A stretch of 64,000 nucleotides of DNA from Lachnospiraceae bacterium (lineage in GTDB: Bacteria; Bacillota; Clostridia; Lachnospirales; Lachnospiraceae), in the NCBI GenBank assembly GCA_017624855.1, contig JAGAMF010000005.1, positions 434,001 through 498,000 of the forward strand, in the 5' to 3' direction. A program made the position numbers and the translations under genes. The notes beneath the pieces were generated by a model that made no database searches, was not told the origin of the DNA, and saw nothing but the letters and a program-made list of their open reading frames with translations. Positions 3,423-55,396 of the stretch are shown here, in pieces. The number at the start of each line of letters is the position of its first letter. Within the stretch, counting starts at the first letter, position 1.

Positions 3423-4934
3423 GTGATGATAACTAATGTGGCACAATATTTAGACGAAACGGTGAATAAATTTCCTGATAAAATAGCATTTGTAGATTCT
3501 AAAAGAAGCATTACATTTGAAACATTAAAAATAGAAGCGGATAAAGTGGCTACTGAAATATGTAATGGTGGTTATAGGAAAGAACCCATAATTGTTTTTT
3601 TGGAAAAGAGTGTAGAGGTTGTTTCTACTTTTTTGGGAATAATAAAAAGCGGAAATTTTTATTCTCCGATTGATGTTAATATGCCGGTTGCAAGAATAGA
3701 GAAGATTATTGATACATTGCAACCTAAGGTTATTATTACAGATAGAAAAAATTCAAAGATTGCGAATGAATTTGCAAAGGGCGTACCGGTTTTAGAATAT
3801 GAAACATGTATGGAAACTAATGTAGACTATGGTTTATTATCTGATGCGAATGATAAGATTTTGGATTCGGATTTGGCCTATGTTTTGTTTACATCGGGCT
3901 CCACAGGTATACCTAAGGGAGTTATGATTTCAGAAAAAGGATTGATAGATTTTGTAGAATGGGCTACAGATTATTTTAAAATAAATGAAGATTTTATTTT
4001 TGGTAATCAAACTCCTTTTTATTTTAGTTTTTCCATATATGAAATTTACCTTACCATTAAAAATGCGGCAACCACATTCATTATCCCCCATGAGTTGTTT
4101 TCATATCCGGGAGAATTAATGAATTATCTTTTTGAACATAGCATTAATACCATTATTTGGGTGCCTTCGGCGTTATGTATGATATCTACATTTAGAGCAT
4201 TAAAAGCACCGTATTTGCCTGAACTAAAACGAGTGCTGTTTGGAGCGGAAGTTATGCCTGCAAAACAATTAAACAGGTGGATTTCAGCATATCCCAATGT
4301 TGAGTTTTATAATTTGTTTGGCCCCACGGAGGTGACAGATACATGTTCGGCATATAAGATTGAACGCCAAATAAATGACAATGAAGCAATCCCTATTGGA
4401 ATATCTTGTCAAAACAAAGAAATGCTGTTACTGAATGAGGACGATGAATTGGTAACGGGAGATGAAGTGGGAGAAATCTGCGTTAGAGGTAGTGGCATGG
4501 CTTATGGTTATTATAATGATGAGCAGAGAACGAAAGAAGTATTTGTTCAAAATCCATTAAATAACAGATATTCTGAAATAATATACAGAACAGGCGATTT
4601 GGCGAGATATAATGAATTGGGTGAACTGATTTATGTCTCAAGAAAAGATTTTCAGATTAAACACATGGGGCAAAGAATTGAGCTTGGTGAAATCGAAACC
4701 GCTATAGCGTCGATAGATGGTGTGGAAAGATGTTGCTGTTTATATGATTCTAAGAAATCAAGAATTTTTATGTTTTATTTGGGTCAAATTGAGAGTACTG
4801 AATTAATTGAAAAACTGAGAAATATTGTTCCGCATTATATGGTTCCCAACAGAAGTATAAAACTGGAAGAAATGCCTTTTAATTTAAACGGCAAAATCGA
4901 TCGTGTTAAATTAAAAAGTGAGTATATCGATTGA
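3423..4934 (+). CDS. adenylation-domain acyl/amino acid ligase (DltA-like) for the adjacent carrier protein
   Basis: About 503 residues of a stand-alone ANL-superfamily adenylation enzyme. The P-loop-like core LFTSGSTGIPKGV is near 3890-3930, NLFGPTE near 4310, the hinge region YRTGD near 4580 and the C-terminal NGKIDR Lys near 4890. There is no fused carrier; the carrier is the preceding gene. GTG 3423 or ATG 3426 can be the start behind GGAGG (3412-3416). It would activate a carboxylic acid as acyl-AMP and load it on the carrier. It resembles D-alanine:carrier ligase DltA, but in the stretch aligning with DltA FCGEVLP it reads FGAEVMP. The Cys that helps DltA read D-alanine is therefore Gly, and the substrate is probably not plain D-Ala. 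No dltB or dltD lies beside it. Confidence 0.88.
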   Translation: MMITNVAQYLDETVNKFPDKIAFVDSKRSITFETLKIEADKVATEICNGGYRKEPIIVFLEKSVEVVSTFLGIIKSGNFYSPIDVNMPVARIEKIIDTLQPKVIITDRKNSKIANEFAKGVPVLEYETCMETNVDYGLLSDANDKILDSDLAYVLFTSGSTGIPKGVMISEKGLIDFVEWATDYFKINEDFIFGNQTPFYFSFSIYEIYLTIKNAATTFIIPHELFSYPGELMNYLFEHSINTIIWVPSALCMISTFRALKAPYLPELKRVLFGAEVMPAKQLNRWISAYPNVEFYNLFGPTEVTDTCSAYKIERQINDNEAIPIGISCQNKEMLLLNEDDELVTGDEVGEICVRGSGMAYGYYNDEQRTKEVFVQNPLNNRYSEIIYRTGDLARYNELGELIYVSRKDFQIKHMGQRIELGEIETAIASIDGVERCCCLYDSKKSRIFMFYLGQIESTELIEKLRNIVPHYMVPNRSIKLEEMPFNLNGKIDRVKLKSEYID

Positions 4935-21098: not shown

Positions 21099-21601
21099 GG
21101 GTGTATTGTAGGTGTAAGGCTGTGTGCTAGAGTCTTCGGAAGCGAATGTAATAGCATAAAAGATGGAGAATTAAGATGCGTATTTAATACCTTTGACATT
21201 TCCTGAGTTTTGGGTAGTCGTGACACTATAGTCAAGTTTGGTTATATTGTTTTGTTTGCTTATGTGGGGTTAATGACAACAAAGAATATTAATTCGTATG
21301 CATTGCAAATTGGAAATAATGAATATAATGCGATGACATACCTATACTTGACACTTTGGCAGAAGGAAGAAACACATGAAATGGTACCTCAAAAGTTTAT
21401 TCTAATAGCATGGATATTAGAGAATAAGGAATGTTGCCAGCAAGTTGAAAAATATCGTTTCAAGAATATATGTGGTTAAAGTATATAAGATATGAGCAAT
21501 ATGTCTCGTATAATGATTTTGTAGAATTATGGTTAGGTAATGAAGAAGAAATATTACAACAATTGGAGGATAAGCGATGTTTAAAGGAAAAACTTTATTA
21601 A
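21099..21601 (+). pseudogene. decayed, unidentified reading frame
   Basis: No intact gene lies between wzx and capE. One frame is open from 21099, is cut by TGA at 21204-21206, and reopens at once (TTG 21210) for 89 codons to TAA at about 21477. At about 21461-21464 the reading can be continued by a one-base shift into EYMWLKYIRYEQY and then FVELWLGNEEEILQQL, ending at 21601 inside capE. The pieces together give about 165 residues, rich in Tyr, Trp and Glu. I do not recognise the family. One stop and one frameshift in a continuous, protein-like composition suggest a dead gene, possibly the 3' part of a transferase lost by recombination. Confidence 0.5.
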
Positions 21602-22617
21602 TCACCGGAGGAACCGGTTCTTTCGGTAACGCGGTATTGGACAGATTTTTGGCAACGGATATCGGAGAAATCCGTATTTTTTCCCGTGATGAATTAAAAC
21701 AGGACGATATGCGTCACTTTTATCAGAGGGAATATCCTGAGTACAGCAATAAGTTAAAATTTTATATCGGTGATGTTAGAGACCCTCAGAGTATTGCCAA
21801 GGCAATGCGCGGTGTGGATTATATTTTTCATGCGGCAGCATTAAAGCAGGTGCCTTCCTGCGAATTTTTCCCCATTGAAGCGGTGAAAACCAATGTGTTG
21901 GGAACAGAGAATGTATTGCAGGCTGCTATCGACGCAGGCGTTAAGAAGGTAATTTGTCTTTCTACAGATAAGGCGGCGTATCCAGTAAATGCAATGGGTA
22001 CTTCAAAAGCTATGATGGAGAAGGTAATTGTGGCTAAGTCTCGAACCATTGATCCGGAAGAAACAAGCATCTGCTGTACCCGTTACGGTAATGTACTTTG
22101 CTCCAGAGGTTCTGTTATTCCTCTGTTTATCAGCCAGATTAAGGAAGGCAAACCTTTAACCTTAACAGAGCCTTCCATGACCAGATTTGTTATGAGCTTG
22201 GAAGAAGCGGTAGAGCTTGTGGTATATGCGTTCCAGAATGCTGAGAGCGGTGACATTATGGTACAGAAGGCACCTGCGTGTACCATTGAAGTACTTGCAC
22301 AGGCTGTAAAAGAATTGTTCCATGCCGATAATGAGATTAAGGTAATCGGTATTCGCCACGGTGAGAAGATGTATGAAACCCTTCTGACCAATGAAGAGTG
22401 TGCCAATGCCATCGATATGGGCAACTTCTATCGTGTGCCTGCGGACAAGCGTGGCTTGAACTATGATAAATATTTTACCGACGGTAATTTGGAGAGAGCG
22501 AAGTTATCGGAGTTTAATTCAAATAATACTGAGTTGATGAATGTAGAACAGGTAAAAGAAAAGTTACTGACCTTAAAATATATTCGTAATGAAATTGCAG
22601 CATGGGAGAATCGATAG
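21577..22617 (+). CDS. capE: UDP-GlcNAc 4,6-dehydratase/5-epimerase (CapE/FnlA)
   Basis: 346 residues, soluble SDR. It has LITGGTGSFGNAV at the N-terminus, then LSTDKAAYPVNAMGTSKAMME, where Met replaces the usual Tyr, as in CapE, FnlA and PseB. It converts UDP-GlcNAc to the 5-inverted 4-keto-6-deoxy sugar (L-arabino-hexulose), step one toward UDP-L-FucNAc. A strong GGAGG precedes the ATG. It is followed by capF and capG, which settles the main role. The same product is the substrate of PseC (46151-47347), so it may serve both paths. G/C content rises sharply here (27 of 60 in 22021-22080), marking a block boundary. Confidence 0.92.
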   Translation: MFKGKTLLITGGTGSFGNAVLDRFLATDIGEIRIFSRDELKQDDMRHFYQREYPEYSNKLKFYIGDVRDPQSIAKAMRGVDYIFHAAALKQVPSCEFFPIEAVKTNVLGTENVLQAAIDAGVKKVICLSTDKAAYPVNAMGTSKAMMEKVIVAKSRTIDPEETSICCTRYGNVLCSRGSVIPLFISQIKEGKPLTLTEPSMTRFVMSLEEAVELVVYAFQNAESGDIMVQKAPACTIEVLAQAVKELFHADNEIKVIGIRHGEKMYETLLTNEECANAIDMGNFYRVPADKRGLNYDKYFTDGNLERAKLSEFNSNNTELMNVEQVKEKLLTLKYIRNEIAAWENR

Positions 22618-42700: not shown

Positions 42701-45700
42701 ATGGCTAGAACAGATTTAAATTTAGAAGAATTGGAATGGTCGGATGACGAAGAGTTTGATGTAGATGAAGAAACTCTGGTTCGTTCTACGGTAGAAACTT
42801 TACAGGCCGGACAGGTTGATAGTGTGGATGTGGAAGCAACGAAGGTCATTCCTACGGCAGAAATTAACGAACAGATAAATGCAGAGAGTTCGGCTGATAT
42901 TCAGGAGCTTTTGGACATTATTGATGCGCAGGAGGGCGATACTCAAATTATGCCTGATTTGTCTTCGGTAGCGATAGATGCGCCTGAGGTTGAAGAAGAT
43001 TTTTCTGCAACCAAAGTGATTCCTGCTGCAACAGTGGCATCGGCTGTTGAATATGAGGATGAAATTGCATTGACAGAGGCGGAAGCAGAAGAATTGGGTG
43101 ATTTGGAATATCATGACGAAGAGCCTGAGGTTATGCCTAAGGAAAAACCTGCGCCCAAGACACATCCCGGTCAGGCGCGAAACACTTCTGCAAATAAAAG
43201 TGCGGGAAATAAAGCGTCGGTTAAAACCGGTGACGGAAGGAATATCAAAGTGCAGAAAAAGAAGAAAAATGCGTTTCAGCAGTTTATTTTAAATCTTCAG
43301 TTGATGGATGCGGTAATCGCACTTGTAGGTGTGCTTGCTGCGGTTGTTTTGGTGTTTGTATTTATTTTCTGGAATGACAACAACAATAAAGTAAAAGATT
43401 TGGGTGAATTTACATCTATCGGTATGCAACTTAGCGAACTGGATACCATCGGTCGTAACGGAATCAATCGTATTGTGTCTACCAGTGGCGGAGATGTAGT
43501 AGGAGAAGCGTTTATTCCTTCTGAATCCGGCGGTGAGGAAGAAGCAATTATGGTTTCTGTAAGCTTTACTTCCATTGAAAGGGATTTAAAGATTAAGTTC
43601 TCGGATAAAGTCAATGAAAAGCTGATTGAAGGATATGCGTTTGAATTAGAGGCAGTTACACCTTCTAATGAAACTTTGACATGGGTTGACGAAGATAAGG
43701 ATGGTATGATTTACCAAGAGGGACTTGCTCCCGGCGCATACATGGTTACCATTAAATCGGTGGAAGATTTCTCATTCCCTTCCGATGCAACCAAGGTTAT
43801 GGTTAAGGATAAGATTTCATATCAGGTAATCAATGTGCTTGATGAGATTAAAACGGAAGACGAAATTAATGTTGCGGTAGAAGATACCGAAAGCAAAGAA
43901 AATATTGATGAGGAAACGCGTCTTGCAGATACTGTAAAATGGGTTCCTTCTGAGAAGAAAGTCAGCTCGGGAGCTGACGGATATGCGCCAATCGATAAAG
44001 CGACCATTACAGATCCGCAGACGCTTGTTGGAGCGGCTTTGGGCGGATTCCGTAAGGTAAATTCTGTTACAATGAAGGTTGGCGAAGAGAAAACCATTAC
44101 TCTTTCCAATTGGACCGAATCCGAGAGCGCGACATATACTTATACATGGGAGAGTAAGGATACATCTAAAGTGTCTATTACATCAACTAACGGAAGCAGT
44201 GCTACAATAAAAGCTATTGCAGAAGGTGAGGGGGCTGTAGTTACCTGTAAGATAACCATAGTTCCGGGCGATGGCTCTACTGCAGAACCGCAAGAACAGA
44301 CATTTACCGTAAATGTAGAAGCTGCAGCATCTCCCGAAACACCTGTACAGGCTTATGTAACCGGCGTTACATTGGATAAGGCAACAGCAGAAGTTACTAT
44401 GGGCTCTACTGCTACATTGGTTGCTACAGTAAACGGAGATACCGGCTGTGATACTGCGGTAACATGGACAAGCAGTAATGAAGCGGTACTTAAAGTGGCA
44501 AACGGTGTGGTTACACCTGTAGCGGCAGGCGAAGCAACCGTAACGGCAACTACCGTAGGAAAAGATGCAAGCGGTAATCAGCTTACCGCAACCTGTAAGG
44601 TGACGGTTAAGGCAGCGGCCACAGCTGAATTGGCCATTAAATTAAAAGCATCTACCTCAGAAATTAAAGTTGGTCAGAAATATACAATTGAATCCACTGT
44701 GGAAAATGCAACCGACGCGAAGAAGATTACTTATGCTGTTGATAAGAAAGAAATTGCAACAGTGGATGATAAGGGTGTGGTTACCGGTGTTGCCAAGGGT
44801 ACGGCGGTAGTAACCGTAACCGTAACCGACAACGGCAAAACCGCGACCGCGACATGTGCAATTACCGTACAGCCTGCCGGAGATTTGGCTATTAAATTAA
44901 AAGCTGATAAAGCAGAAGTTCTTGTCGGTGAGAAATATACCATCGAATCAACTATTGAAAATGCAACGGATGCGAAGAAAGTAACTTATGCCGTTGATAA
45001 AAAAGAAATTGCAACAGTAGACGATAAGGGTGTGGTTACCGGTGTTGCCAAGGGTACAGCGGTGGTAACCGTAACCGTAACCGATAAAGGCGTTGACGGC
45101 AAGGATAAAACTGTAACCGCTAAGATTACCATTACGGTAAAGGCAAATCCCAAGAAGGATACAACAACTCTTCTTAAGGATGCAAGCGGCAAACAGGTAT
45201 ATGTAAAAGATGCAAGCGGCAATTATGTACAGGCAAAATGGGCAGATTACTATACTGCTACAGAATTCTATATTCAGGCTGAGCCTACCTACACTTATTA
45301 CGGATGGCAGACCTTAAACGGTAAGACCTACTTCTTTGATGAAACAGGTAAAAAGGTTACCGGCGAGCAGGTTATTTCAGGTGTGAAGTATAACTTTGCA
45401 AGTGATGGCTCATTATCTATGAACGGTGGCGTTCTGGGTATTGATGTAAGTAAGTGGAATGGAACCATTGACTGGAATGCAGTTAAGAACTCAGGTATTT
45501 CCTTCGTAATTATTCGTTGCGGATACCGTGGTTCGGCTACCGGTGTATTGGTAGAGGATCCGAAGTTTGAGTCCTATATTAAGGGCGCAACCAAAGCAGG
45601 ATTAAAAGTTGGTCTCTACTTCTTCTCTCAGGCAATTAGTGAGAAAGAAGCCGTGGAAGAAGCCTCAATGGCTATTTCCTTAGCAAAGGATTACAAGATT

Positions 45701-46024
45701 TCATATCCGATTTATATCGATACGGAATGGACCAGCGGCGGTCGTGCTAACAGTCTTAGTAAGGAAACCAGAACAGCAGTATGTAAAGCATTCTGTGAAA
45801 CCATTAAGAGTGCCGGATATACCCCCGGTGTATATGCATGTAAATCATGGTATCAGGATTCCTTGAATGTAAGTACTTTAAACGGATATAAGATTTGGCT
45901 TGCTCAGTATGCGTCACAGCCCACATATTCAAACAGATATGATATGTGGCAGTATACCGATAAGGGTAAAGTAAACGGTATCACTACCAATGTTGATATG
46001 AACATCAGTTATTTGGGATATTAA
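42701..46024 (+). CDS. surface protein with Ig-like stalk, cell-wall-binding repeat and GH25 muramidase domain
   Basis: 1107 residues. An acidic cytoplasmic part of about 200 residues is followed by one membrane span (about 205-228, LMDAVIALVGVLAAVVLVFV). A SpaA-like domain lies at about 290-365, and Big2-type Ig-like domains at about 450-815, two of them near-identical. A choline-binding-type repeat (YYGWQTLNGKTYFFDETGKK) is at about 865-905. The C-terminal GH25 domain runs from 912. The likely catalytic residues are Asp915 (GIDVSKWNG), Asp1007 and Glu1009 (DTEW). It would be held in the membrane and cut peptidoglycan at the end of a long stalk. There is no signal peptidase site or LPXTG. 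A shorter paralog lies at 54167-55396. Confidence 0.88.
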   Translation: MARTDLNLEELEWSDDEEFDVDEETLVRSTVETLQAGQVDSVDVEATKVIPTAEINEQINAESSADIQELLDIIDAQEGDTQIMPDLSSVAIDAPEVEEDFSATKVIPAATVASAVEYEDEIALTEAEAEELGDLEYHDEEPEVMPKEKPAPKTHPGQARNTSANKSAGNKASVKTGDGRNIKVQKKKKNAFQQFILNLQLMDAVIALVGVLAAVVLVFVFIFWNDNNNKVKDLGEFTSIGMQLSELDTIGRNGINRIVSTSGGDVVGEAFIPSESGGEEEAIMVSVSFTSIERDLKIKFSDKVNEKLIEGYAFELEAVTPSNETLTWVDEDKDGMIYQEGLAPGAYMVTIKSVEDFSFPSDATKVMVKDKISYQVINVLDEIKTEDEINVAVEDTESKENIDEETRLADTVKWVPSEKKVSSGADGYAPIDKATITDPQTLVGAALGGFRKVNSVTMKVGEEKTITLSNWTESESATYTYTWESKDTSKVSITSTNGSSATIKAIAEGEGAVVTCKITIVPGDGSTAEPQEQTFTVNVEAAASPETPVQAYVTGVTLDKATAEVTMGSTATLVATVNGDTGCDTAVTWTSSNEAVLKVANGVVTPVAAGEATVTATTVGKDASGNQLTATCKVTVKAAATAELAIKLKASTSEIKVGQKYTIESTVENATDAKKITYAVDKKEIATVDDKGVVTGVAKGTAVVTVTVTDNGKTATATCAITVQPAGDLAIKLKADKAEVLVGEKYTIESTIENATDAKKVTYAVDKKEIATVDDKGVVTGVAKGTAVVTVTVTDKGVDGKDKTVTAKITITVKANPKKDTTTLLKDASGKQVYVKDASGNYVQAKWADYYTATEFYIQAEPTYTYYGWQTLNGKTYFFDETGKKVTGEQVISGVKYNFASDGSLSMNGGVLGIDVSKWNGTIDWNAVKNSGISFVIIRCGYRGSATGVLVEDPKFESYIKGATKAGLKVGLYFFSQAISEKEAVEEASMAISLAKDYKISYPIYIDTEWTSGGRANSLSKETRTAVCKAFCETIKSAGYTPGVYACKSWYQDSLNVSTLNGYKIWLAQYASQPTYSNRYDMWQYTDKGKVNGITTNVDMNISYLGY
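44630..45139 (+). repeat. tandem Ig-like (Big2) coding repeat, about 255 bases, two copies
   Basis: Two units start at 44630 and 44885, each about 85 codons and each beginning with the codons for LAIKLKA. The cores are the same for 33 residues except one Ile/Val change (YAVDKKEIATVDDKG and on), and the DNA is near-identical too. It looks like a recent duplication that lengthens the stalk; copy number could vary between strains. Confidence 0.85.
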
Positions 46025-46150: not shown

Positions 46151-47347
46151 TTATTTATTTTTATAGTAATTTACAACTTTCTTAACTGCTTTGATGACAT
46201 CCTCCACATCCTCGTTGGTGAGAGAGTAATATAAAGGAATGCTCATAATTCTGTCATATAAGTGTTCTGCATTGGGGCATAAGCCTTTGGTATAGCCAAG
46301 CTTTTCATAATAAGAATGGTAATACACCGGCATGTAATGCACTTGGGGACATACATTTTCTTCCCATAATGCGTCAAAAAACTCTCTACGGTTACAGCTT
46401 AAAAGATCTAAGTTAAGCTGAATAATATACAAATGCCTTGTGGTTTCCGATTCGGGAATTTCTTTCTGAACAATAATCTCGGGCATATTGGCAAATGCTT
46501 CGTTGTATTTATGAACAATTTCATCACGACGCTTGGAAAATGCAGGAAGTTTGTTTAACTGGCTTGCAATTAAAGCTGACTGGAAATCCGTAATGCGGTA
46601 ATTATAGCCTAACTCAACCTGTTCATTATACCAGGGGTCATCTGTGGGATGAACCATTTCATCCATATTTCGTGTTATGCCGTGGGTGCGCAAGCGCATC
46701 AGCTTATGATAAAGTTCTTCGTTGTTTGTAAGAATTGCACCGCCTTCGCCGCCGGTAACGGTTTTTACGGGGTGAAAGCTGAATGTGGTCATGTCCGCAA
46801 TGCTTCCTACTGCCTGTCCTTTGTATTTGGTGCCGATGGAGTGAGCTGCATCTTCAATAAGAATTAGATTGTGCTCCTTGCAAATAGCACGGATTTCATC
46901 CAGCTCTACTGCCTGCCCTGTAAAATCTACCGCAACTACCGCTTTGGTATTTGGGGTAATGTGTTCTCGGATGGACTGCGGTGAAATGTTGTAGGTCTCC
47001 GGATTGATATCTGCGAATACGGGTTTTGCACCGCAATATAAAGCACAATTGGCAGATGCTGCGAAGGTGATGGGAGTAGTAATTACTTCATCTTCTTTTT
47101 GAATATCTGCGGCCAAACATGCTAAGTGGAGAGCGGCAGTTCCGTTGCTTACGGCTACGGCATATTTTGCTCCGGTGATTTCACATAATTTTTTCTCGAG
47201 ATTAGCGGCCATGGGACCACAAGTGATTAAATCACTTTTTAAAACATTGGTTACAGCCTGAACATCCGCATCATCGATGTATTGTCTTCCGTAATAAATC
47301 TTTTTTTCTCGAACGGGAGTTCCGCCGAAAATAGCAAGGTTTTCCAT
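46151..47347 (-). CDS. pseC: UDP-4-amino-4,6-dideoxy-L-AltNAc transaminase (PseC)
   Basis: 398 residues of the DegT family, PseC type. It has FGGTPVREKKIYYGRQ at the start, then AVAVSNGTAALHLACLAA and the PLP Lys in FSFHPVKTVTGGEGGAIL, where HPxK replaces the NGNK of the pglE product. It aminates the 5-inverted 4-keto sugar, the second step to pseudaminic acid. GAGGT lies 6 bases before the ATG. It is on the opposite strand to pseI and pseG and shares a 165-base divergent promoter region with them. No pseB is in the window, but CapE (21577) makes the same ketosugar. Confidence 0.9.
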   Translation of the reverse strand: MENLAIFGGTPVREKKIYYGRQYIDDADVQAVTNVLKSDLITCGPMAANLEKKLCEITGAKYAVAVSNGTAALHLACLAADIQKEDEVITTPITFAASANCALYCGAKPVFADINPETYNISPQSIREHITPNTKAVVAVDFTGQAVELDEIRAICKEHNLILIEDAAHSIGTKYKGQAVGSIADMTTFSFHPVKTVTGGEGGAILTNNEELYHKLMRLRTHGITRNMDEMVHPTDDPWYNEQVELGYNYRITDFQSALIASQLNKLPAFSKRRDEIVHKYNEAFANMPEIIVQKEIPESETTRHLYIIQLNLDLLSCNRREFFDALWEENVCPQVHYMPVYYHSYYEKLGYTKGLCPNAEHLYDRIMSIPLYYSLTNEDVEDVIKAVKKVVNYYKNK

Positions 47348-47512: not shown

Positions 47513-48550
47513 ATGCTTCAGATTTTATTGGCGGTCTTTTGGCTGTTGGTGATACCTTTTGGTTGTGGCGTTTTTTTGACAAAAAAGATGCCTCGGGAAC
47601 AACAGAGTTTAGGGAATATTTTTTTGAACGGCTATCTTGTGATGATAGCCTTGTTTCAGTGTGTATATTTGTGTTTTGTTTTGCTGAAGAGTAATGATTT
47701 TAATTTACTGTCAATTGTGTTTGGGATAACGGTTGTTATTTTTGCATTATGTTCGACATGGCTTGGCAGGGATATTGTTGTGCCTTGTGTAAAATGTCTG
47801 AAAAATAAAGATGCTTTATTGCTGAAAACAGTGTTTGCGGTAATTGTGGCGGCTCAATTGGTGATGCGCCTAATGCAGCAAATCTATGACGGTGACGATG
47901 CCTTTTATATTGCTACCGCTACGGCAAGTTATGCCAGCGGCACCATGAATCGGATTCAGCCTTACACTGGATTTGTAATAGATGGTTTGGATATGAGACA
48001 TGCTTTGGCGGGAGCACCTATATGGATGGCATTTTTATCCAAGGTCACTATGATACATCCCGCAATTATGGGGCACAGTGTACTGTCTCTTATTATGATT
48101 GTACTGCATTATTTGGTAATTCTTGGCTCGGGTAGTGTGTTGTTCAAAGAGAAGAAGCAGGAGAAATATTTATTTGCATCGCTGGTAGGTTTTTTTAATA
48201 TTTACGGATATGTAAGCATTTATACTGCCCAGACATTCTTTTTGACACGAACCTGGCAGGGTAAAAGTATATTTGCAAACCTGTTCCTGCCCGTACTTCT
48301 TCTTTTGCTGTTGCGAATCGGTGAAATAAAACAGAAAGAAAAGGTGTCAAATTTATATTATATTTGGGCGGCAATCATTTTATTCGGAGCAGTTTCCATG
48401 ACCACCATGGGTGTGCTCATTGCTCCGGTACTTTTTATGTTTGGTATTGCTTTCCTTGCGATTTATCACAGAAATCCTAAGATGTTTTTTAAAGCGCTTT
48501 TTGCCTGCGTGCCGGTAGGTTTGGTGGGACTTTTGTATTTTATTTTATAA
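47513..48550 (+). CDS. multi-span membrane protein (DUF6077/GT-C-like)
   Basis: 345 residues with about 9-10 hydrophobic segments. Between spans 3 and 4 is a polar outer loop with YDGDDAFYIATATASYASG, an acidic motif in the first loop as in GT-C glycosyltransferases. It resembles DUF6077 proteins, but these are longer; here the C-terminal part ends abruptly after the last helix. Another membrane protein at 51262-52044 may be the other half. A GT-C enzyme would take a lipid-phosphate sugar, such as that made by the GtrB-like protein at 29234, and use it on the outer face. That role is inferred. Confidence 0.62.
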   Translation: MLQILLAVFWLLVIPFGCGVFLTKKMPREQQSLGNIFLNGYLVMIALFQCVYLCFVLLKSNDFNLLSIVFGITVVIFALCSTWLGRDIVVPCVKCLKNKDALLLKTVFAVIVAAQLVMRLMQQIYDGDDAFYIATATASYASGTMNRIQPYTGFVIDGLDMRHALAGAPIWMAFLSKVTMIHPAIMGHSVLSLIMIVLHYLVILGSGSVLFKEKKQEKYLFASLVGFFNIYGYVSIYTAQTFFLTRTWQGKSIFANLFLPVLLLLLLRIGEIKQKEKVSNLYYIWAAIILFGAVSMTTMGVLIAPVLFMFGIAFLAIYHRNPKMFFKALFACVPVGLVGLLYFIL

Positions 48551-48570: not shown

Positions 48571-50208
48571 ATGAGTACTTTTAAAATAAAAAACCGTATC
48601 ATCGGTGAAGGGTATCCGGCCTATATTATTGCAGAAATGTCGGCAAATCATGCGGGTAGCATCGAACGCGCGAAAGAGATTATTCGTGCTGCGAAGGCGG
48701 CGGGGGCAGACTGTGTGAAAATTCAGACTTATACACCGGATACTTTGACTATTGATTGCGATAATGAATATTTTGCCATTACGGAAGGCACCTGGAAGGG
48801 GGAAAATCTGTATGGTTTGTATGGTAAAGCATATACTCCTTTGGAGTGGCAGGCGGAGCTTTATGCAGAGGCAAAGCGCATCGGAATCGATTTTTTTTCT
48901 ACACCCTTTGATAACGATACGGCAGATTTTTTAGAAGATATGGGGATGGAATTTTATAAAATTGCATCTTTTGAAATGATTGATTTGGATTTTCTTCGTC
49001 ATGTGGCGGCAAAGCAGAAGCCTATGATTGTATCTACAGGAATGTCCACCTTGGAGGAAATGAAAGAGGCTGTAAATGCCATTTATGAAACGGGAAACCG
49101 ACAGTTGGCACTTTTAAAATGTTCCAGCGCATATCCTGCGGTATCGGATGAAATGAATTTAAAAACCATTCAGCATATGAAGGAGGTTTTTGATATTCCT
49201 ATCGGTTTATCAGATCATTCCATGGGGTCCCTTGGAGCGGTAACGGCGGTAGCGCTGGGGGCATGTATTATTGAAAAACATTTTTGCCTCGGTAGGGAGA
49301 TTGAGAACCCGGATGCTTCTTTTTCCATGACGCCCGAAGAGTTTAGGCAGATGGTGGAAGATGTAAGAGCTGTGGAGCGAGCTATGGGTAAACCTACCTA
49401 TGGTATGGCACCTTCCGAAAAAAATAACATGGTGTTCAGGCGCTCCTTGTTTGCAGTGAAGGATATTAAAGCGGGAGAGGTCTTTACTTCCGAGAACATT
49501 CGCAGTATTCGCCCCGGCTATGGTTTGAAGCCGAAGTTTCAGCAAGATCTTTTGACTATGACGGCAGGTAAAGATATTAAGAGAGGCGAGCCTTTAAGCT
49601 TTGAAGCAGTTCAAAAAGGCGCCGTGCTCTTTTTAACCAATAACAGTAATACAGATAGTTTTTATAACAGATTAAAAGCATGTGAAGAAAAGGTATATCG
49701 TTTTACCAATAAGTTGACATTGGACATTATAAAAGCGATAGAGCCTTCCTTTGTGATTAGTTTTAACTATAAACATATTGTGCCCGCAGAAGTGTTGGAT
49801 TACATGAAGGGACGCATTGTAAACCTTCATACCTCCTACTTGCCTTATAATAAAGGTGCAGCGCCCAATTTCTTTTCCTTTTATGAAGATACTCCGAAGG
49901 GGGTAACCATTCATGAAATGGCACCGGGGTTGGATGAAGGCGCAATTCTTTTGCAACGCTTAGTGGAGATGAAGGCGGAGGAAGAAACCTTTGCAAGTTC
50001 GTATGATAAGCTTATGATGGCCATGGAGAAACTTTTCTTTGAGCATTGGGATGCCTTAAAAGCAGGTAATGTTAAGGCTGAGGAGCAAGTTGGTGAGGGC
50101 ACATACCATACCTCTCGCCAGTTAAAGGAAATAAGAGATAAAAGTGATTTTACCTGGAACGAAAATATTGCGCAGGTATTGGATAGAGTAAGACAGGATA
50201 AAAAATGA
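48571..50208 (+). CDS. pseI: pseudaminic acid synthase fused to a formyltransferase domain
   Basis: 545 residues, about 200 more than PseI. Residues 1-265 are the NeuB-type barrel with PseI-like blocks (AEMSANHAGSIERA, IQTYTPDTLT, LSDHSMGSLG, IEKHFCLG). Residues 290-348 are the SAF domain. From 350 a Rossmann-type formyltransferase follows, with the catalytic triad Asn418, His420 (IVNLHTSYLP) and Asp455 (GLDEGAIL). The His-to-Asp distance of 35 is close to the 36 in Fmt and ArnA. The first part condenses the 6-deoxy-AltdiNAc-type sugar with PEP. The second probably formylates the 4-amino group of the earlier intermediate, replacing PseH, which is missing. The stop overlaps pseG by 4 bases. 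Confidence 0.88.
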   Translation: MSTFKIKNRIIGEGYPAYIIAEMSANHAGSIERAKEIIRAAKAAGADCVKIQTYTPDTLTIDCDNEYFAITEGTWKGENLYGLYGKAYTPLEWQAELYAEAKRIGIDFFSTPFDNDTADFLEDMGMEFYKIASFEMIDLDFLRHVAAKQKPMIVSTGMSTLEEMKEAVNAIYETGNRQLALLKCSSAYPAVSDEMNLKTIQHMKEVFDIPIGLSDHSMGSLGAVTAVALGACIIEKHFCLGREIENPDASFSMTPEEFRQMVEDVRAVERAMGKPTYGMAPSEKNNMVFRRSLFAVKDIKAGEVFTSENIRSIRPGYGLKPKFQQDLLTMTAGKDIKRGEPLSFEAVQKGAVLFLTNNSNTDSFYNRLKACEEKVYRFTNKLTLDIIKAIEPSFVISFNYKHIVPAEVLDYMKGRIVNLHTSYLPYNKGAAPNFFSFYEDTPKGVTIHEMAPGLDEGAILLQRLVEMKAEEETFASSYDKLMMAMEKLFFEHWDALKAGNVKAEEQVGEGTYHTSRQLKEIRDKSDFTWNENIAQVLDRVRQDKK

Positions 50209-51224
50209 TAGGAATCAGAGCAGACGGAAACAAAAAAATCGGAATAGGTCATATTATGCGTTGTATGACCGTGGGAGACGCAATGAAGCAGCTGGGGGAA
50301 GACGTGATTTTCTTTTTGGCGGATTGTGACTGCGTATCTTTGGTAGAAAGCAGAGGATTTCGTTGTTGTGTTCTGGATTCGTTATATGATGACTTGAATT
50401 CCGAAACGGAAAAAGTGATGGGCTTATTGGATGAATTTCATGTGAATAAGTTGCTTGTTGATTCTTATTATGTGACGCCGGAATATCTTAAGGCATTAAG
50501 CGAAAAAGTTGTCATTGCCTATTTGGATGATATGGATATGTTTGAATATCCTGTTGATGTTTTGATTAATTACAATGTGTTTGCTCAAGCTGAGGATTAT
50601 CCCTATGTGACAGAGGATACGCAGTGTTTAATCGGTCCGAAATACGCGCCTGTGAGAAAAGAGTTTGCCAATGTATGTGCATCCGAAAATAAAGAGGTGG
50701 AAAATATTCTTATTACCTTAGGGGGGAGCGACCAATACAATCTTTCCCTAAAAATTGCAAGGGTTTTGCTTGAATGTACAAATTGCAGATTGCATGTGGT
50801 GTGTGGTCCTTTTAACAGGAATCGTGAAGAATTGGTGGAGTTGGCCGAGAATAATGAACGGGTTCTTTTACATGAGAATGTAAAAGAAATGTGGAAGCTG
50901 ATGGAAGACTGTGAATTGGCAGTGTCGGCAGCCGGGTCTACCATGTGCGAGCTGGCAACGGCCCGTGTGCCTGCCATTACATTTTCTTTTGTGGATAATC
51001 AGCAAAAAATTGCAGAAGCTTTTGGAGAAAAGAATGCTGCTGTAACTGTGGGACATTACGAATGTACTAGGGAACCGGAATTTTTGAATGACATAAAAGA
51101 AGCGGTGACAAAGATGATTTCTGATGCGGAATTTCGAGAAAGTGTCGGAAAGAATGCTTATAAATTGGTGGATGGCGCCGGGGCGGAAAGAATTGCACGA
51201 GCTATCATGGAGCGAACGAGATAA
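50205..51224 (+). CDS. pseG: UDP-sugar hydrolase PseG
   Basis: 339 residues. It begins IGIRADGNKKIGIGHIMRCM, the PseG signature with the His of GIGHIMR. The GT-B-like C-terminal half has ILITLGGSDQYN, CELAVSAAGSTMCELA and FVDNQQKIAEAF. It removes UDP from the di-amino sugar before PseI acts. The ATG is within ATGA, overlapping the pseI fusion stop, so the two are translated together. No acetyltransferase domain is fused to it. Confidence 0.9.
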   Translation: MIGIRADGNKKIGIGHIMRCMTVGDAMKQLGEDVIFFLADCDCVSLVESRGFRCCVLDSLYDDLNSETEKVMGLLDEFHVNKLLVDSYYVTPEYLKALSEKVVIAYLDDMDMFEYPVDVLINYNVFAQAEDYPYVTEDTQCLIGPKYAPVRKEFANVCASENKEVENILITLGGSDQYNLSLKIARVLLECTNCRLHVVCGPFNRNREELVELAENNERVLLHENVKEMWKLMEDCELAVSAAGSTMCELATARVPAITFSFVDNQQKIAEAFGEKNAAVTVGHYECTREPEFLNDIKEAVTKMISDAEFRESVGKNAYKLVDGAGAERIARAIMERTR

Positions 51225-51261
51225 TCGGATATAAAATTATGTGAAAGAAAGGAGTGACACA

Positions 51262-52044
51262 ATGGTTGGCGCAGAAGGTTCTGTTTTAATGATGTTAAAA
51301 TTATATGGTGGCAATATGAGCCTGATGTTGTTATTTGTTGCTTCTTTGATTTATTTGTGGATTACGGACAAAAATAAAGGACGGAAGGCAGTGCTTGTAT
51401 ATACTTCCGTTGCGGTTTTGGGCTTGTTTTTCTTTCCCTTGTTTTCATATTTCGTAATAGATATTATGGGCGAAGAAGAAATATATTACCGTCTGCTTTG
51501 GGCATTGCCCATGGGCGTTGTGATTGCTTATGCGGCAGTGAGATTTTTGAGCGCAATAAAAAAGAAATGGTTGCAGGCAATATTGTTGCTTTTATTGTGT
51601 GCGTATATTGCCGTAGGCGGTCATTTGATCTATAAAAGCCCGCAGTTTAGCAGAGCCGAGAATATATATCAGGTGCCGGATGCGGTGGTTCAAAGCTGCG
51701 ATGCCATTGTAGTGCCCGGCAGGGAAGTTATGGCGGCGTTTCCGGCGGAGTTAGTACCTTATGTGCGCCAATATTCTGCGTTTGTGGTAATGCCTTACGG
51801 ATATGATTCTCTTGTGGAACGCTGGGGACTGGGCGAGGACTTGGAAGTGGAAATGAGCAAAGATGTTTCCGATGCTAAGCTTTTATCCGAATTGGCAATG
51901 GAAGAAGGGTGCCATTTCCTGGTTATAAACCAAAACCATGTTATTGCGGGAGATTTGGCCGATTACGATTATACGCTGATTCTGCAGGTGGAAGGATATG
52001 ATGTGTATAAATACGATTATGCGGATTTGCGAACGGAGTTTTAA
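51262..52044 (+). CDS. membrane protein of unknown function, possible partner of the DUF6077-like protein
   Basis: I start at ATG 51262 (260 aa): AAAGGAG at 51247-51253 lies 8 bases upstream, and the GTG at 51241 precedes that site. Four spans lie at about 14-33, 42-70, 80-100 and 110-128. A soluble outer domain of about 130 residues follows, with PDAVVQSCDAIVVPG and MEEGCHFLVINQNHVI. The stretch EEIYYRLLWALPMGVVIAYA looks like the late part of large GT-C-like proteins. With the truncated-looking protein at 47513 it may form one split enzyme; pseI and pseG lie between them. This is inference. Confidence 0.55.
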   Translation: MVGAEGSVLMMLKLYGGNMSLMLLFVASLIYLWITDKNKGRKAVLVYTSVAVLGLFFFPLFSYFVIDIMGEEEIYYRLLWALPMGVVIAYAAVRFLSAIKKKWLQAILLLLLCAYIAVGGHLIYKSPQFSRAENIYQVPDAVVQSCDAIVVPGREVMAAFPAELVPYVRQYSAFVVMPYGYDSLVERWGLGEDLEVEMSKDVSDAKLLSELAMEEGCHFLVINQNHVIAGDLADYDYTLILQVEGYDVYKYDYADLRTEF

Positions 52045-54166: not shown

Positions 54167-55396
54167 ATGGATAAGAAAATACGAAACGCAGCCATTGCTT
54201 CCGTGGTAATCGCCGTGCTTCTTATACTTGCTACCGTGTTTGTGGTAAACGGAGTAAAAAGCGGCAGTTTTTCTCAACAGCAGGTTTCTGCGCCTCAGAA
54301 AGAAAGTGCAACAGAACCCACATCCGAAGAAAACGGTAAAAGCTTCTTGAACGATCCGGCATTTTTAGATGAGTATCAGCCCTTTGCGGGAGAAGAACGG
54401 GAGGAGAGCGAAAACAAGCTTTCTCTTTTGGTCAGTTCCGTGGAACGCGATTTGCGTGTGATGATTATCGATGAAAACGGATTTGCGGTAGAAGGCGAAA
54501 AGTTTTATGTTACGGTAGACGGTATCGGTGATTACAAGGATTTGGACGGAGACGGTTATATCTATATCGGCGGAATCAAGCCCGGCAGTTACTATGTATC
54601 CTTAAAAGAAACCGGGGACTATGTTATGCCTGAGCCGGTAAAGGTAAGCGTAAAAGACAAAATTGAATTTGCCAAGCTGGAGGATATATCTTATCTGATT
54701 AAAACGGAAGATGAGATTGATGCCGAGTTGGAAGATACCGCAAAACATGAGGTGGATGCCGATGATACGGAGTATACCGATGCATGGGACGAGCAGCAGG
54801 GCGCGGTGCTTGGTATTGATGTATCCAAGTGGAATCGCAACATTGACTGGGAAAAAGTAAAAGAATCCGGTGTGCGGTTTGTAATTATCCGTTGCGGATA
54901 TCGTGGTTCCAAAACAGGTGCTTTGGTAGAAGATCCATATTTCAGACAGAATATAAAAGGTGCTACGGATGCCGGTTTAAAAGTGGGAATATACTTTTTT
55001 ACACAGGCAATTACTCCTGCGGAAGCCGTGGAAGAAGCGAGTATGGCATTAAAGCTGGTGGAAGGGTATGAGCTGGACTATCCGATTTTTATTGATACGG
55101 AAGGTTCGGGCGGCCGTGCCGACAGTTTGGATACGGAGACCAGAACCGCCGTGTGTGAGGCCTTCTGCGAAACCGTGGAACAGGCAGGCTATGAGGCCGG
55201 TGTATATGCCAGCCGCAATTGGTACTACAATAAAGTGGATGACGATGCGTTGTCCGATTATATTATTTGGGTGGCGGAGTATCGCAAAGAGCCCTTATAT
55301 ACAGGCAAGTATGATATGTGGCAGTATACTTCTTCCGGACAGGTGGATGGCATTGAAGGACGGGTGGATTTGAATCTGTCCTACATTAACCGTTAG
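54167..55396 (+). CDS. membrane-anchored GH25 muramidase with SpaA-like domain
   Basis: 409 residues. One N-terminal span (about 7-28) is followed by a linker, a SpaA-like domain (about 90-175: DGDGYIYIGGIKPGSYYVSLK), a short acidic hinge (IKTEDEIDAELEDT) and the GH25 domain from about 215. Catalytic candidates are Asp218 (GIDVSKWNRN) and Asp310 and Glu312 (IDTEGSGG). It is a clear paralog of the 42701 protein, lacking the Ig-like stalk and the wall-binding repeat. It would cleave peptidoglycan glycan strands close to the membrane. Its place between rmlA and rmlC, 15 bases after rmlA, suggests its activity is tied to polysaccharide export or attachment. Confidence 0.88.
   Translation: MDKKIRNAAIASVVIAVLLILATVFVVNGVKSGSFSQQQVSAPQKESATEPTSEENGKSFLNDPAFLDEYQPFAGEEREESENKLSLLVSSVERDLRVMIIDENGFAVEGEKFYVTVDGIGDYKDLDGDGYIYIGGIKPGSYYVSLKETGDYVMPEPVKVSVKDKIEFAKLEDISYLIKTEDEIDAELEDTAKHEVDADDTEYTDAWDEQQGAVLGIDVSKWNRNIDWEKVKESGVRFVIIRCGYRGSKTGALVEDPYFRQNIKGATDAGLKVGIYFFTQAITPAEAVEEASMALKLVEGYELDYPIFIDTEGSGGRADSLDTETRTAVCEAFCETVEQAGYEAGVYASRNWYYNKVDDDALSDYIIWVAEYRKEPLYTGKYDMWQYTSSGQVDGIEGRVDLNLSYINR

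Follow-up and report, generated by a model that had tools for sequence, protein, structure and literature searches.

A PseI–PseJ-type fusion protein in Lachnospiraceae as a candidate bifunctional enzyme for 7-N-formylated pseudaminic acid

Introduction

PseJ of Anoxybacillus was reportedly described in 2018 as a formyltransferase that acts on the PseC product as a replacement for PseH, and the same study is said to relate PseJ to the ancestor of the domain with which linear gramicidin synthetase (LgrA) formylates. The LgrA domain modifies an aminoacyl group carried by a peptide synthetase, and ArnA joins a formyltransferase to an oxidative decarboxylase. 5-Acetamido-7-formamido pseudaminic acid (Pse5Ac7Fo) is a known natural sugar (a title cited in PMC7281560; PMC3210612). 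For the flagellin islands of Geobacillus, one comparative study lists Pse genes without PseH in types II–IV; type III has the formyltransferase fmt2 (PMC5109656). In Halorubrum sp. PV6, a predicted formyltransferase gene lies in a nonulosonic acid cluster and an N-formylated sugar was detected by mass spectrometry; that system differs from the present one in that the sugar is legionaminic acid, the formyl group sits at C5 and the formyltransferase is a separate gene (PMC6137143).

Here we describe a pseI gene that continues into a PseJ-type formyltransferase domain, located in a 64,000-nucleotide stretch of a Lachnospiraceae genome (hereafter the window). The original prediction had called for a comparison of the C-terminal domain with structure databases, and in a PDB sequence search PseJ is the best solved relative (6CI2 and 6CI4; 122 bits, E 1.7e-34), followed by the formylation domain of LgrA (94 bits, E from 8e-26) and then by Rv3404c, ArnA (52 bits) and others. 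The fused domain resembles PseJ (6CI2, 6CI4, 6CI5 and 6EDK) in its compact length (a 192-aa chain in PseJ) and its motifs. PseJ, however, is a separate chain, whereas the domain here is fused behind PseI, and the PseJ fragment lies outside the clade of the fusions. As compared with the pseudaminic acid synthase 8H2C, which matches the PseI part with 333 bits, the barrel and SAF domain are held in common, but the fusion protein is longer by about 195 residues, which hold a second catalytic domain. In LgrA, a PseJ-like domain is likewise fused to another enzyme, but the partner and the context differ. ArnA also carries sugar-pathway steps including a formyltransferase on one chain, but is more distant (67 bits on NF005998, cut-off 777). 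Pse steps are further combined on one chain in the PseH–PseG fusions of G196 and G187, which would add acetyl, not formyl.

In the literature searched, whose reach did not extend to most subscription journals, no published PseI–formyltransferase fusion was found, and the PseI–PseJ domain order appears to be new as far as the searches reach. Since PseJ reportedly has this function and Pse5Ac7Fo is already known, the formylation chemistry itself is a known alternative. Most likely, then, the replacement of PseH by PseJ is established chemistry and the novelty lies in a domain arrangement common to related bacteria, for which we infer the substrate and product.

Domain architecture of the fusion protein

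The fusion gene (48571–50208, forward strand) encodes a 545-aa ORF. Its N-terminal part passes the PseI equivalog model TIGR03586 with 464.9 bits over residues 17–342 (cut-off 340.25) and contains both the NeuB-type barrel (PF03102; residues 37–275, positions 48679–49395, forward strand) and the SAF domain (PF08666; residues 290–344, positions 49438–49602, forward strand) of a PseI. The compact formyltransferase domain follows at about residues 350–545 (PF00551; positions 49618–50205, forward strand), where Formyl_trans_N matches residues 384–488 with 58.2 bits (cut-off 26.1). The Pfam order along the chain is therefore NeuB, SAF and Formyl_trans_N, and these matches bear out the earlier statement that a complete PseI and a compact formyltransferase share one chain. 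Assignment of the domain to the PseJ type follows from PseJ as the nearest solved relative and from the Asn-His-Asp triad (N418, H420 and D455).

The Pfam match begins only at profile position 72, and a truncated formyltransferase was considered and rejected, as stand-alone relatives of 192–197 aa begin at the same strand. Judged by its sequence, the fused domain is a complete representative of a short family.

Distribution and origin of the fusion

No second fusion was listed among 200 genomes of the family at E ≤ 1e-30, and two of them, G120 and G011, have a stand-alone protein related to the final 200 residues. In G120, which belongs to the same genus, the stand-alone formyltransferase (L049:9405-9995) lies in a locus without a recognised Pse gene in the 19 kb read. 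At E ≤ 1e-20, a search of 392 genomes of the order gave eight with a formyltransferase relative, which in three (our genome, G440 and G501) sits in a frame longer than 560 aa. A search of the GTDB collection that started from eight aligned formyltransferase sequences gave 263 relatives; 80 of them were retained for locus reading. These comprise 28 PseI–formyltransferase fusions, with G440 and G501 counted as L085 and L142 (L068 is the same place as L142), and 52 non-fusion loci. The same fusion, which the original prediction had suggested looking for, is thus present in 28 other genomes among the 80 of 263 relatives read. All but one of these carriers (27/28) are Lachnospiraceae by record title, Acetatifactor included; the remaining one is L096.

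In a tree of 84 formyltransferases, with the short L143 left out, the 29 fused domains and one outsider (L103) form a clade (support 100/97) and the fusion label needs two changes, a pattern that fits a putative single origin of the fused formyltransferases. A PseI tree of 99 rows likewise requires two changes of the label, and a single origin may hold by that tree too. The PseJ fragment, represented by only 151 residues in a tree without an outgroup, groups with members of other groups, and the fusion clade lies elsewhere.

The domain is encoded together with Pse genes, being fused to PseI with pseG adjoining. Similar linkage recurs outside the fusions: PseI, PseG or PseF is nearby in 43/52 non-fusion loci, and PseI lies within 2 kb in 37 of them. 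The gene order is pseC-pseF-pseI-formyltransferase in G531 and pseI-formyltransferase-pseG in G542, and neither locus contains a match to TIGR03585 (the NCBIfam PseH model) at E ≤ 1e-7.

Pse pathway genes and the proposed reaction sequence

The original prediction placed both PseC and PseG next to the fusion. This holds for pseG (50205–51224, forward strand; UDP-sugar hydrolase, TIGR03590, 206.1 bits), which by its coordinates begins within the stop codon of the fusion gene, and only loosely for pseC (46151–47347, reverse strand; TIGR03588, 472.3 bits), the gene of the aminotransferase making the amine proposed as formyl acceptor, which is encoded in the other orientation 1.2 kb upstream, beyond a DUF6077 gene. 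PseF is encoded on the contig of the window, C12 (C12:417729-418421, also given as 417738-418400; 294 bits). No PseB over the TIGR03589 cut-off was found in our genome, a 74.5% complete assembly; the best match is an FnlA/CapE-type 4,6-dehydratase/5-epimerase (21577–22617, forward strand) with 324 bits on TIGR03589 (cut-off 407.75) and 520 bits on the FnlA model (cut-off 730). FnlA/CapE-type enzymes make a keto-sugar related or identical to the PseC substrate, and this one is a possible but unproven source of that substrate. Missing parts of the assembly might contain pseB or another pseH.

The DUF6077 gene and its partner, of membrane type (47513–48550 and 51241–52044), are kept apart by the pseI fusion and pseG, as they are in L073. 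A single DUF6077 gene split by the pse pair was rejected as an explanation, because the two are separate neighbouring genes in L076, L078, L091 and L098.

We propose that the fusion is a bifunctional Pse enzyme, in which PseJ-type formylation of the PseC product is combined with PseI condensation to give Pse5Ac7Fo, and we assign this reading a probability of roughly 0.68. The C-terminal domain would transfer the formyl group of N10-formyl-tetrahydrofolate to the 4-amino group of the PseC product, UDP-2-acetamido-4-amino-2,4,6-trideoxy-L-altrose. PseG, encoded by the next gene, would strip UDP from the formylated sugar, the N-terminal PseI would condense that sugar with phosphoenolpyruvate to Pse5Ac7Fo, and PseF would activate the product with CMP. 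Here we infer the substrate, the formyl position, the donor and any benefit of holding two non-consecutive steps on one chain. If true, this Lachnospiraceae clade would display formylated rather than acetylated Pse, with the fusion gene by itself marking a formylated surface sugar. Furthermore, the joining of two non-consecutive pathway steps, with the intervening hydrolase separate, would offer a good case for testing why steps fuse.

A GNAT acetyltransferase near the window

The absence of PseH, on which the original prediction relied, is true of the window but not clearly of the genome. About 7 kb before the window, a GNAT gene (C12:426788-427342) matches TIGR03585 over C12:426830-427312 with about 93.4–93.6 bits, just above the curated cut-off of 93.1. 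The alternative that survives best starts from this gene: the GNAT would be the true PseH and Pse would be 7-N-acetylated, with the fused formyltransferase acting on another amino sugar of the glycan or on the second Pse nitrogen after de-acetylation, or with both acyl forms made. We regard it as unlikely, and the evidence bearing on it is as follows.

TIGR03585 matches at E ≤ 1e-8 occur in 28/29 fusion genomes, ours included, with best scores of 56–93 bits per genome, and in all 28 the best match is of the GNAT's type, which favours the GNAT as PseH. Ours is the only fusion genome with a match over the cut-off, and the fusion genome G570 has none at E ≤ 1e-7. Two local models were compared, one for the GNAT type (our gene and L055:13603-14151) and one for the PseH type (12 PseH-like sequences picked because they lie next to PseI or PseG). 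In the 27 other GNAT-bearing fusion genomes, the best matches score 169–296 on the former and 49–70 on the latter; ten secondary TIGR03585 matches of the fusion genomes reach at most 53 on the PseH-type model, and the four matches of our genome at most 55 bits, on what is a small model and a 74.5% complete assembly. By comparison, seven comparison loci score 177–221 on the PseH-type model, but their sequences themselves belong to it. An earlier four-sequence PseH model gave 55–166 for 13 PseH matches outside the model and 40–69 for those genes of the fusion genomes that match in one piece, ranges that touch at the low end. Because the controls are model members and outside PseHs score 55–166, the real gap between PseHs and the GNATs of the fusion genomes is narrower than 177–221 implies.

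On TIGR03585 itself, eight PseHs beside PseI or PseG score 44–53 bits and the L055 GNAT scores 85; of ten PseHs or GNATs taken from such contexts, nine match the model, and L150 falls under the reporting limit. Which type merits the name PseH therefore rests on genomic context. The best solved relatives of our GNAT, spermidine and aminoglycoside acetyltransferases, are not decisive.

Genomic context was assessed in the 200-genome sample, in which 45 genomes were scored as PseI-positive (match above 330 bits) and GNAT presence required E ≤ 1e-30 (20 of the 23 found; the weak matches left out are G116, with PseI and WecE, and G024 and G031, both without WecE). The GNAT is present in 19/29 genomes with both PseI and WecE, 0/16 with PseI and no WecE, 1/37 with WecE and no PseI, and 0/118 with neither. 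Fisher tests give 1.4e-5 for 0/16 against 19/29 and 2e-8 for 19/29 against 1/37, both of which overstate independence since the genomes are related. The first contrast speaks against the GNAT as PseH, as PseI-bearing genomes lacking WecE need the same step; the second speaks for it, and PseI-positive genomes hold 19 of the 20 strong GNAT matches. Judging from this pattern, the GNAT requires WecE and, mostly, PseI too. Because its presence tracks WecE, we read the GNAT as probably N-acylating the WecE product, as part of a glycan in which Pse is present as well.

Individual genomes also bear on the question. Against the GNAT as PseH, G089 has the GNAT and WecE with no PseI match at E ≤ 1e-30, G570 has the fusion without WecE and without a TIGR03585 match, and G196 and G187 carry the GNAT within 2 kb of WecE alongside a PseH–PseG fusion. 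WecE lies within 2.5 kb of the GNAT in 12/28 GNAT-bearing fusion genomes and on the same contig in 24/28. In favour of the GNAT as PseH, it is located within 2.5 kb of a PseC match above 600 bits in 7/27 fusion genomes read (G554, G565, G567, G568, G569, G571 and G572), directly adjoins that match in G571 and adjoins pseB in the non-fusion genome G198. PIG-L de-N-acetylases near the formyltransferase in L105 and L142 (by Pfam match in L105 and in L068, the place of L142) likewise favour action on a second nitrogen. Owing to the model membership of the controls scoring 177–221 and to the PseC neighbourhoods of the GNAT, we weighed formylation of the PseC product lower, and the GNAT as PseH higher.

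Formyltransferase as a possible substitute for PseH

The proposal that the formyltransferase takes the place of PseH is supported in part. In 28 fusion loci read, over stretches of 4–20 kb, no PseH match of at least 50 bits on the local model was found. No TIGR03585 match at E ≤ 1e-7 was found in four of 17 formyltransferase genomes examined, namely the fusion genome G570 and the other carriers G579, G603 and G605 (genome completeness not given). Against the proposal, GNATs are present in 28/29 fusion genomes, and a PseH match (at least 50 bits) stands beside the formyltransferase in 12/52 non-fusion loci, ten of at least 92 bits and the others of 71 (L103) and 55 (L132), with both on one chain in three of the 12. 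Since these loci carry both genes, the formyltransferase is not always a substitute for PseH. This state is scattered over the formyltransferase tree (11 changes). The unfused carriers G542 and G599 have TIGR03585 matches over the cut-off elsewhere in the genome, of our GNAT's type by the local model, and that type is present at E ≤ 1e-15 in 20/37 genomes outside the fusions, 35 of the 37 with a formyltransferase. Among 29 PseI loci whose flanks lack the domain, five have a PseH match above 100 bits within 1.5 kb and three more a weak one, so that a missing PseH beside PseI is weak evidence by itself.

A stronger form of the main proposal is that the fusion is a commitment device: with formyl and pyruvate addition kept on one chain and pseG overlapping in the same operon, the clade would make only 7-N-formyl Pse even with a PseH-family acetyltransferase present, possibly with the sugar passed between the sites or with PseI rejecting the acetyl form; this is unlikely.

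PIG-L de-N-acetylation followed by C5 formylation was considered as a general scheme and is not supported, as the PIG-L motif occurs in 3/88 loci scanned (L058, L105 and L142); among neighbour-ORF clusters of the same 88 loci, the labelled recurrent families are Pse and WecE. For L105, such a de-N-acetylation and formylation scheme may apply: L105:6447-13721 gathers PseC, PseF, PseI, PseH, two formyltransferases, a PIG-L de-N-acetylase and PseG in a single cluster, and its product may be a sugar formylated at a second nitrogen. In L058:10086-11914 (G080), a GNAT is joined to a different formyltransferase type (Formyl_trans_N and Formyl_trans_C_2) and followed by PIG-L, between pseI and pseG.

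Further fusions of Pse genes were observed. The three one-chain loci (L099:9521-10600, L100:9518-10582 and L149:9488-10585) encode PseH fused to a PseJ-type formyltransferase and hence two acyl-transfer domains, yet the PseC product should offer one free amine. Selenomonas infelix pairs the same formyltransferase domain with PseG in a 540-aa frame (L102:8987-10597) in a genome with no TIGR03585 match at E ≤ 1e-7, and PseF and PseI share a single 589-aa frame in L052:8809-10578 (G094).

Conservation of the catalytic triad and the joint

The original prediction located the Asn-His-Asp triad at residues 418, 420 and 455, and these residues are found there. They are invariant in all 27 aligned fusion ORFs (ours and 26 others), an alignment that omits L085 and L096 from the 29 fusion genomes; the L085 locus (G440) has all three as well. 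The motif around the triad is conserved between fused and stand-alone formyltransferases. Fusion partners can lose activity, and the domain might accordingly be a structural passenger or an allosteric partner of PseI with catalysis lost, a reading that has nothing direct in its favour and that the unchanged N418, H420 and D455 and the motif shared with stand-alone members make very improbable.

The joint is constant in the 27 aligned fusions, with about five residues from the end of SAF to the first formyltransferase strand; in L096, the PseI and formyltransferase model matches instead lie about 190 bases apart. An artefact of assembly or frame, which the 74.5% completeness of our draft genome might suggest, is refuted by the relatives and can be dismissed: the fusion frame recurs in 28 other genomes, and the 26 of them that were aligned have an identical joint.

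Further genes in and near the window

An AMP-binding ligase is encoded beside LegC-like and NeuD-like genes (3423–4934), and another adjoins a second formyltransferase about 31–34 kb before the window (L015:6261-8634); together, the two ligases and the second formyltransferase suggest that surface sugars carry further acyl groups. The polysaccharide genes are interspersed with genes for two proteins that have family 25 glycosyl hydrolase domains (42701–46024 and 54167–55396); one of these proteins also has Ig-like and choline-binding repeats.
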